Source of the DNA: Planctomycetaceae bacterium | GTDB taxonomy: Bacteria; Planctomycetota; Planctomycetia; Planctomycetales; Planctomycetaceae | Assembly: GCA_021732975.1 (NCBI GenBank) | Contig: JAKFWC010000023.1 | Location: 62,001 to 126,000, forward strand | DNA length: 64,000 nucleotides | Reading direction: 5' to 3' | Shown: in pieces, positions 7,937 to 47,710 of the stretch | How positions within the stretch are numbered: position 1 is the stretch's first letter | Layout of the letters: each line of letters begins with the position of its first letter | The notes under the pieces: model-generated | The model's input: only the letters and a program-made list of their open reading frames with translations | What the model was told of the DNA's origin: nothing | The model's database searches: none | Translations under genes and position numbers: made by a program

Positions 7937-7942
7937 TTCGTA

Positions 7943-16519: not shown

Positions 16520-16650
16520 AACCCCGAGTGTCATCATGCTGTGTTCAGGTCATCAGGAAGCAACGGGAATGGCTATCGCTCTCGCAGAGCGGCGGTTTCA
16601 CCACGATCGCAGGGCAAATGCTTGTTTCACAATCGTGAAGTCGAGCATGG

Positions 16651-16748
16651 GTGGCCGGGGCTGGAGCGTACTCGCGAAGCCCCGGGGAAATCGAGCGCTC
16701 AATGTACCGGGGCTTTCCTTCGGTCCAGCCCCGGCCAATCCAGCTTCA
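16651..16748. repeat. gtggccggggctggagcgtactcgcgaagcccc family inverted repeat, copy 1
   Basis: gtggccggggctggagcgtactcgcgaagccccgg ... ccggggctttccttcggtccagccccggcca; second copy at 46584. Confidence 0.85.
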
Positions 16749-16928
16749 TAAAACGATGGCCCTGGCCAAGATCGCTTCCAGCCTTGATCATCGTCAAAGG
16801 AATCGGTCGAATAGAGAATCGTTGATCGGATGCCTCGCCCCGCCTCGAACTGCTCGCGTGTGGCCTACTACGTTACGGCCGAGTTGATTCCTGCCCAATT
16901 TTGTCTCCCCGCCGAGGATGCCTTGAAG

Positions 16929-33470: not shown

Positions 33471-33545
33471 TGCCCCCCGTCAATAGCGGGGGGATCGTGG
33501 GATGGGCAATTGCAGACCCCCGGTCATTGACCGGGGGCTAAGACG
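33471..33545. repeat. Two-hairpin element (gcccccggtcaatgaccgggg family), copy 2
   Basis: ttgccccccgtcaatagcggggggat ... gacccccggtcattgaccgggggctaagacg. Confidence 0.85.
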
Positions 33546-40037: not shown

Positions 40038-40955
40038 ATGGTTCAGGCTGCATATCCGAATGCAGTCTCGTTCGCTACGCAGACGGATCGGACTCGACTA
40101 AGATGGGTGCTGCACGATCCTCGTCGTGTTCATCCCATTGCGCTGGAAAGCTGGTATCGTCGCATGTTGCCCCGTCGCGAATTGTTTCCTCACGTCATCG
40201 AAATGAACTATCAGGCCCGCCAACGGATGGGTTGTTCGGTCTACCTCGTCCACGACCGCGGGGAATGGTTGCTGATCGATATCGGTTACGAAGACACCGC
40301 CGAGGAAATTGTCGATCTGATCCGCCAGATGGATTTCCAACTCGCGCAGTGCAAGTACCTAGTTTGCACGCATGCCGATGTCGACCACATTCAGGGGATG
40401 AAACGCGCCCAGGAATTGCTGCCGTCGGCGAAGCTCATTGGCCATCCGGAATGTCAGCAGGTGCTTGCCGCCGCGGATCGCATCGTGACGTATGCCGAGA
40501 TTTCCGCGCAGGGGATTTCGATCGATCTGCCTGTGATCACGATTCAGGAAACGATTAACGAAGGCGACCAGTTGACCGTTGGTGGAGTGACACTCGATGT
40601 GTGGAACACGCCGGGGCACACCCCGAGTCAACTCTCATTCAAGCTCGGCAACCTGCTCTTCTCGGGCGACAACATCTACCGTGACGGCTGCGTCGGGAAC
40701 ATCGACGCCCATCACGGTTCCGATCTGCCCGACTTCGTGAAGTCACTGGAACGCATCCGCGATGCCGATGTGGAGTGGTTGCTCCCCAGTCACGGCCCCG
40801 TCTTCCGCAAGAACAAGAAAGTGTTGCAGAAGACGATCGACCGGTTGACCGAATACCAGCACATGGCCGACTTCGGCACGTGCGCCGTCGATTGGCCACT
40901 CTTGGAAGAGTGGGAAGAAGAACTTATCCGCGGTTTCGATCCAGAAAAAGCGTAA
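40038..40955 (+). CDS. MBL-fold metallohydrolase
   Basis: [22 protein letters not shown] ... [27 protein letters not shown]; start may be 40164 (MLPRRELF). Confidence 0.88.
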
Positions 40956-40957
40956 CT

Positions 40958-41043
40958 CATTTAGCCCCCCGTTGTCTTCAACGGGGGGAGCGGCGACCAT
41001 CGATACCAAGAACCTCCGGTTGCGGACAACCGGGGGCTAAATG
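40958..41043. repeat. Two-hairpin element (gcccccggt family), copy 3
   Basis: catttagccccccgttgtcttcaacggggggag ... cctccggttgcggacaaccgggggctaaatg. Confidence 0.8.
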
Positions 41044-46442: not shown

Positions 46443-46583
46443 CGTTCTCCATTCTGATTCACGAGTGCGCGATGTGCCGGCGGACCGGCCGTCCCTACCT
46501 CGTATGGTACGAAATGACATATCTCTGTCGTGGATCAAATCGCGGCATCGTCCATCGATTCGTCTGATTCAGAGTGCTCGGCG

Positions 46584-46683
46584 GGTGGCCGGGGTTGGAG
46601 CGTACTCGCGAAACCCCGGAAAACAGCGTGTTGCCAAAATGCCGGGGCTTCCCTTCGGTCCAGCCCCGGCCACCCCCGCTTCA
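46584..46683. repeat. gtggccggggctggagcgtactcgcgaa family inverted repeat, copy 2
   Basis: gtggccggggttggagcgtactcgcgaaaccccgg ... ccggggcttcccttcggtccagccccggccac. Confidence 0.85.
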
Positions 46684-46793
46684 AAAAGGCGATGACCCTT
46701 TCCCATCGGCTCCGTTGCTGGCGTTCGTCCGGGGGGTTTGATAGAACAACGGAGACCGGATATTCGACCCGGAGCGGTTCACGTCAGGAATGA

Positions 46794-47264
46794 GTGATGG
46801 ATGCGGTTTTATCGAGTTTGCTGCAGTTAGTGACGGCGGTGTGGCAGTTGCTGATCGCCCTGATCTTCCTCGTCACGCCGTGGACGCCGCTCATCGGTTA
46901 TCTCGCGTTCTGGCTGTTCGCGGTCGATTGGGTCAAGTTTCGGCTGGTGCTCATTCGCGGCGGGATCATCGGTGTCCTGCTCATTGTTTTTATGACGACA
47001 TTGGTCTGGGGCCTGATCGCACCGCCACCGGGGGATTATCACAATATCTTCGGCCTACACCTCTCCAACTTCGTCGGGAAGTTCGTCTATGTGGCGGCCC
47101 TGACGGTGATGATGTTCCTCTGCGGGTCGGTGCAACTCTCCGGGCTGTGCGGCTCATGGGCCCAGTTCCCGGAAGACGCCCCTGCGGACGATCATCACGG
47201 CCACGATGACCACGGTCATGACGCCCACGGCGATGCCGATCACGCCGTCGCCCACGCGCATTAA
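46794..47264 (+). CDS. Hypothetical membrane protein with His/Asp-rich C-terminal tail
   Basis: 4 hydrophobic segments then DDHHGHDDHGHDAHGDADHAVAHAH. Confidence 0.7.
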   Translation: MMDAVLSSLLQLVTAVWQLLIALIFLVTPWTPLIGYLAFWLFAVDWVKFRLVLIRGGIIGVLLIVFMTTLVWGLIAPPPGDYHNIFGLHLSNFVGKFVYVAALTVMMFLCGSVQLSGLCGSWAQFPEDAPADDHHGHDDHGHDAHGDADHAVAHAH

Positions 47265-47270
47265 TCACCA

Positions 47271-47302
47271 GAAGCCCACGGTTTCTTAACCGTGGGTCTC
47301 AT
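47271..47302. repeat. GAAGCCCA family hairpin, copy 1
   Basis: gaagCCCACGGTTtcttAACCGTGGGtctcat. Confidence 0.85.
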
Positions 47303-47333
47303 CCCGTGCTCACAACGAACCAGGATTCTCATC

Positions 47334-47669
47334 ATGGCAGACGGCAACGGCAACCAGGCGGAACCGCGTCCGCAACAGCCCGTCCAGACGATCACCGAAC
47401 CGGAAGGCCTGCAACCGCTGTACGCCAACTTCTGCCAAGTGTCGCACACACCGGAAGAACTGGTGCTCGACTTCGGCCTGAACCCGCGGCCATTTGAACC
47501 GTCGCCGCATCCGATCAAAATCACGCAGCGGCTGGTGGTGAACCTCTACACTGCGAAGCGCATGTGGGCCGCATTGGGAATGGCGCTGGAACGACACGAA
47601 AAGACCTTCGGCGCGATCGAAATCGATGTCAACAAGCGAGTCGCCCAACGCCCGCAACAACCGAAGTAG
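47334..47669 (+). CDS. DUF3467 domain protein
   Basis: PLYANFCQVSHTPEELVLDFGLNPRPFEPSPHPIKITQRLVVNLYTAKRMWAALGMALERHEKTFGAIEID. Confidence 0.88.
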   Translation: MADGNGNQAEPRPQQPVQTITEPEGLQPLYANFCQVSHTPEELVLDFGLNPRPFEPSPHPIKITQRLVVNLYTAKRMWAALGMALERHEKTFGAIEIDVNKRVAQRPQQPK

Positions 47670-47677
47670 CATCCCCA

Positions 47678-47710
47678 GAAGCCCACGGTTTCTGAACCGT
47701 GGGTCTCTTC
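47678..47710. repeat. GAAGCCCA family hairpin, copy 2
   Basis: gaagCCCACGGTTtctgAACCGTGGGtctcttc. Confidence 0.85.

Follow-up and report, generated by a model that had tools for sequence, protein, structure and literature searches.

The window analysed here, a 64,000-nucleotide stretch of a Planctomycetaceae genome, raises the question of why one short hairpin recurs at distant positions with its stem altered on both sides at once. The sequence-only reading had proposed four dispersed copies of this hairpin, and three of them are borne out: the pattern GAMGCCCNNNNNTTCTNNNNNNTGGGTCTC is matched exactly at 47271-47300 (+), 47678-47707 (+) and 56624-56653 (-), against a chance expectation of 0.03 matches with up to three mismatches allowed (100 window shuffles). 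The same exact matches confirm that the stem is CCCACGGTT/AACCGTGGG in the first two copies and CCCAGGGTT/AACCCTGGG in the third. Copy 1 (47271-47303, + strand), which reads GAAG-CCCACGGTT-TCTT-AACCGTGGG-TCTCATC, has its GAAG end 6 nt 3' of the stop codon of an ORF without a Pfam match (46794-47264, +). In copy 2 (47678-47710, +; loop TCTG) the GAAG end lies 8 nt 3' of the stop of a DUF3467 gene (47334-47669, +; PF11950, 4.7e-18) and the opposite end is separated by 7 nt from the stop codon of the convergent gene 47718-50660, so that the two copies do bracket the DUF3467 gene in the same orientation, as had been noticed. Copy 3 (56621-56653) is on the - strand and, a feature absent from that reading, lies in frame within the ORF of a 1487-aa ThuA-DUF7133-cytochrome c protein (55195-59658, +). 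The fourth copy (63980-64000, -), located 3 nt beyond the stop of the ORF 63533-63976, is cut by the window end. Extended with the genomic sequence that follows it reads GAAGAGACCCAGGGTTAAGAAACCTTGGCTTC, with one stem base deleted and one pair changed on one side only; it is thus a decayed copy rather than the compensated variant that it had been taken for. The Rfam models gave no match at gathering score within the window.

The host genome is a 3.76 Mb assembly, 65% complete, in which a stem-anchored pattern retrieves 60 copies and a pattern with the stem interior left free retrieves 91, with no match for the reversed-pattern control in either case. The element measures 33 bp and is composed of GAAG, a 9-bp stem arm, a TCTK loop, the second 9-bp arm, a TCT bulge and CTTC, where GAAG is able to pair with CTTC across the bulge. 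Column frequencies over the stretches around the copies delimit a conserved 33-bp block, GA[A/C]GCCCA ... TTCTKA ... TGGGTCTCTTC, with sharp edges on both sides and a loose CCCC preceding it; the third base of the 5' end is A in 83% and C in 14% of the copies, giving GAAG or GACG. The inner stem, present as CGGTT, GGGTT, GCCTT, GCCAT, GGCAT, CCCAT, GGGAT, CGGAT and other variants, is nearly always paired with its complement, whatever its sequence, and the predicted DNA fold reaches z values of -5 to -6. About ten pairs of copies form inverted doublets roughly 46-55 nt apart. Taken together with the positions described below, the copies are probably members of one dispersed, untagged family of REP-like palindromes whose presence is accepted, or exploited, nearly exclusively at the 3' ends of genes, and the best interpretation is a repeat specific to this lineage and akin to the REPs of other bacteria.

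A significance test of covariation on genome-wide copies, which had been suggested as a check, used 112 copies, taken together from this genome and the sister species G001 (JAKFUG01, a Planctomycetaceae MAG). Standard pairs occupy 94% of the pair cells, compared with 81% in shuffles, and 141 two-sided changes are counted versus 46; neither this count nor the covariation score (0.308 versus 0.105 shuffled) was reached in any of 500 shuffles. Columns 17-30, 18-29, 19-28 and 20-27 covary, and the changes there take the form of GC/CG and UA/AU swaps. The covariation is lost when the 3' arm is shifted by one to three columns, and a shift of a single column lowers pairing to 55-57%. As such shuffles are blind to the relatedness of the copies, an independent test was carried out at orthologous sites. 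The C-terminal 75-110 residues encoded by 44 upstream genes served as queries against G001 and, for 15 of these genes, also against G002, a third species of the same genus; the DNA 3' of the stop codons was then compared across species. Among 24 orthologous hairpin pairs between this species and G001, the changed stem pairs comprise 23 two-sided and nine one-sided cases. Pairing is therefore kept among both genome-wide and orthologous copies, in place of the independent, non-compensatory arm changes that would have spoken against the earlier claim that a paired change implies a fold that matters or is copied, and this claim gains support.

Two-sided changes can, however, also have a mutational origin. 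Template switching is a reported route to altering both arms in a single step (PMC8794818), which means that covariation alone is no proof of selection on the fold. In an unselected version of this process, replication template switching within the quasi-palindrome copies one arm from the other, and the same work reports that stems can be both made and maintained in one such event (PMC8794818). Some inner-stem differences, which span two to three adjacent pairs together (e.g. GCC versus GGG at ftsK), agree with this explanation. Mutation alone leaves the constant outer stem and loop and the strong gene-end bias unexplained, and one-sided differences do occur, as in the nine orthologous cases; as the sole cause of the paired changes, template switching is accordingly rated as rather unlikely. 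The positional bias and the constant loop add to the case for selection on the fold. Selection on structure and rewriting of the hairpins by copying may both contribute, and under the reading of a REP-like family new stems would come from two-sided changes produced either by ordinary compensation or by replication template switching.

The position of the copies relative to genes was assessed with gene calls from a simple codon-usage script, which is not a full gene finder. By these calls, 108 of 112 examined copies from the two species are intergenic. Of 107 intergenic copies, 86 have the GAAG end turned towards a stop codon of the same orientation, and in 81 of the 107 it lies no more than 35 nt after that codon, at a median distance of about 9 nt and with a usual spacing of mostly 0-15 nt; in six cases a TGA stop codon is completed by the GA of the element itself (distance -2). 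Within tandem gene pairs, co-oriented copies outnumber reversed ones by 39 to 16 (p=0.003). Intergenic gaps are also filled by inverted pairs with a spacing of about 50 nt, often with one hairpin for each convergent gene end.

Such placement and orientation 3' of stop codons, where a GC-rich and mostly gene-oriented hairpin directly follows the stop, are likenesses to Rho-independent terminators and are compatible with the elements being plain intrinsic terminators whose sequence is common through ancestry or convergence, without any mobility. Other species carry terminator-like hairpins at the orthologous sites, some of them with U-tracts: the typA hairpin of G002 ends in CGCTCTCTTATTTTT, orthologous-site hairpins of G001 include GGGTTTCTTTTTT and GGGTTGTTTTTT, and some copies in this genome end in TCTTTTTT. 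An enrichment of U-tracts in the co-oriented copies, considered as proof of termination, was not found. A run of at least four T within 20 nt of the stem is present in only ten of 81 co-oriented copies, and the T content is the same in the copies outside this co-oriented group. U-tracts being both rare and not orientation-specific, the element as a whole falls outside the definition of a terminator, which single copies do satisfy. A terminator also needs no identical loop and bulge, whereas both are identical here in dozens of copies of a dispersed family, and some copies are placed in frame within proteins. An origin as plain terminators consequently appears improbable. The literature search returned nothing on intrinsic terminators in Planctomycetes.

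A role of the REP-like element at mRNA 3' ends is probable. Escherichia coli REPs are described as blocks to 3' exonucleases, weak terminators or ribosome-pausing elements. Stop-proximal REPs of this bacterium have been reported to affect translation (PMC12306157). The transcribed hairpin might act in one of these three ways at the 3' end of the message, an action that would keep the arms paired, and the copies could have been generated by some enzyme that copies the unit while it is folded as single-stranded DNA.

Other hairpin repeats are found near stop codons in the window, at 33514-33545, 40955-40995, 46583-46690 and 16649-16752; they belong to the TAGCCCCCGGTCAATGACCGGGGG type and to CCGGGGCTT families, which indicates that several unrelated families occupy gene ends in this genome. 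Two long intergenic stretches (CCACAGAAGGCACAGAGGACACAGAAAG ... TTTTGCGTCCTCTTGCG) at 50804-50958 and 52175-52334 are about 90% alike and 1.4 kb apart.

The amplification of the element is lineage-restricted. Among 149 genomes searched, the bulged form is present in number in two, this one and G001, and is absent from G002. The latter species instead carries about 65 copies of an unbulged perfect palindrome, GAMGCCCAGGGAWNGCNWTCCCTGGGCKTC, and part of these copies coincide in position with the bulged element (icdh, ftsK, the 47271 locus and the DUF7133 loop). The core triplet of the stem is common to 17 of 24 orthologous sites, compared with a permutation mean of 9 (P=0.00025, computed with 16 shared sites, before one mis-assigned pair was corrected); this conservation above chance suggests that many copies have long been in place and did not arrive recently. 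A clean empty-site pair was not found in the sister genome: where the element is missing, its place is taken by different sequence, in many cases a repeat of another kind. In G001, a GCCCGAAGCGCGAGCGCCGGGTTC-type repeat replaces the hairpin pair at the sites L004 and L022.

The apex of the hairpin behaves differently from its core. The loop is TTCT in this genome, with only four exact TTCC matches, and often TTCC in G001, with 50 exact matches. Of 17 orthologous loci at which the loop-proximal pair is T-A in this species, 14 have A-T in G001, a two-sided difference that is mostly accompanied by the loops TCTK here and TCCG there. Judging from these sequence comparisons, the copies appear to be largely long-resident, with species-wide differences at the apex. 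This pattern could result from selection acting in parallel on the apex, from partial conversion or from turnover within subfamilies. That the loop and the loop-proximal pair evolve in concert genome-wide, independently of the stem core, is a doubtful proposition; if true, it would point to a factor that reads and binds the hairpin or to directed rewriting, either of them acting on dozens of gene ends at once. Since the gene ends that three sister species have in common bear related hairpins in species-specific versions, a site-by-site comparison can distinguish between compensation, template switching and gene conversion, and the element represents a tractable case for the spread and the maintenance of pairing of short palindromes.

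Described REP repeats offer the closest comparison. The GTAG and CGTC types are palindromes of 20-40 bp, several families of which have an 8-9 bp stem with a 4-nt loop; they occur in tens to hundreds of copies, form inverted dimers and are mostly located less than 20 bp after gene 3' ends, while some copies lie in frame within genes, including those of tRNA synthetases (PMC3733652). The element resembles them in size, inverted dimers, location at gene 3' ends and intragenic copies, and is REP-like in the broad sense, i.e. a short palindrome with many, mostly extragenic copies (91) and inverted doublets. It differs from the GTAG type in lacking an unpaired GTAG end, in place of which it has GAAG, or GACG in about 14%, and from both types in that its GAAG end can pair with CTTC across the TCT bulge. 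The CGTC types lack a linked transposase (PMC3733652); compared with these, the element has no 5' CGTC tag, AT-starting stem or CCA tail, and its stem starts with CCC. The word GAAG is absent from the main text of the 2013 REP survey (PMC3733652).

If the element were mobilised like GTAG REPs, one would expect a HUH transposase of the RAYT type that recognises a matching site and whose gene has either been lost or lies in sequence that the assembly does not cover. A constant tetranucleotide end, a bulged stem, a constant loop and inverted doublets, all of them REP-like traits, are in line with this idea, as the loop and the bulge are among the features known to be recognised in TnpA-REP interactions (PMC8266576), and PF01797 matches reveal two RAYTs in this genome, nine in G001 and four in G002. 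Yet none of these 15 matches in the three genomes, this one being incomplete (65%), has the element (GAAGCCCA hairpins) beside it, a result that extends to the near-complete sister genomes and sets the element apart from GTAG REPs. The RAYT on contig C21 has another repeat, GCCCGAAGCGCGAGCGCCGGG, at its flanks, and the element ends in GAAG or GACG, not GTAG. Mobilisation by a RAYT is thus regarded as somewhat unlikely. A RAYT-like Y1 transposase gene (L032 1225-1885) is flanked by a different REP, GCCCGAAGCGCGAGCGCCGGGTTC, to which repeats at 7938, 10356, 11232, 13074 and 21705 of the window are related.

For a REP-like family without a linked transposase, the REP/RAYT 'orthoswitch' classes of Pseudomonas and Stenotrophomonas (PMC3686654) provide a parallel, as related genomes there have different stem versions and lineage-specific abundance. 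The switch in those genera was inferred from REPs that flank orthologous RAYT genes, whereas in the present case it is apparent from orthologous gene ends, with no RAYT linked. The findings extend REP-like repeats without a linked transposase to the Planctomycetaceae, several genera of which show amplification of related GAAGCCC...GGGCTTC families. Elsewhere in the Planctomycetaceae, other genera carry hairpins of this form in versions of their own, with 27-110 copies. The amplified families of G012, G043 and G023 (L199-L213) possess cores such as GAAGCCCGGCTTTTTCGAAAAGCCGGGCTTC, and GAMGCCCN12-20GGGCKTC has 36-116 matches per genome in these three, compared with 0-3 for the reversed-pattern control.

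Three of the approximately 91 copies are in frame within two proteins, one in the DUF7133 protein and two in isoleucyl-tRNA synthetase. Palindromes in frame in proteins are also known as Rickettsia palindromic elements (RPE; PMC3733652), a likeness that is limited by the small share of such copies here. The copy at 56624 contributes approximately the residues RDPGLRNPGL to a loop of the DUF7133 protein whose length varies between 7 and 28 residues in relatives; the G002 protein has its own hairpin version at the same place and the G001 protein a different tandem repeat. The isoleucyl-tRNA synthetase ORF (L033 3728-7706, contig C21) contains its two copies at about residues 270-285 and near VEETHGSETVGF; at least the second of them is missing from the homologue in G001 (57% identity). 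The tandem repeat in the DUF7133 loop of G001 (L158) is of the GAGTCGAGAGTCCA type, in frame, and is also found downstream of icdh in L164; in this genome, similar GAGTCAAGTGCCAGA stretches abut some of the hairpins.
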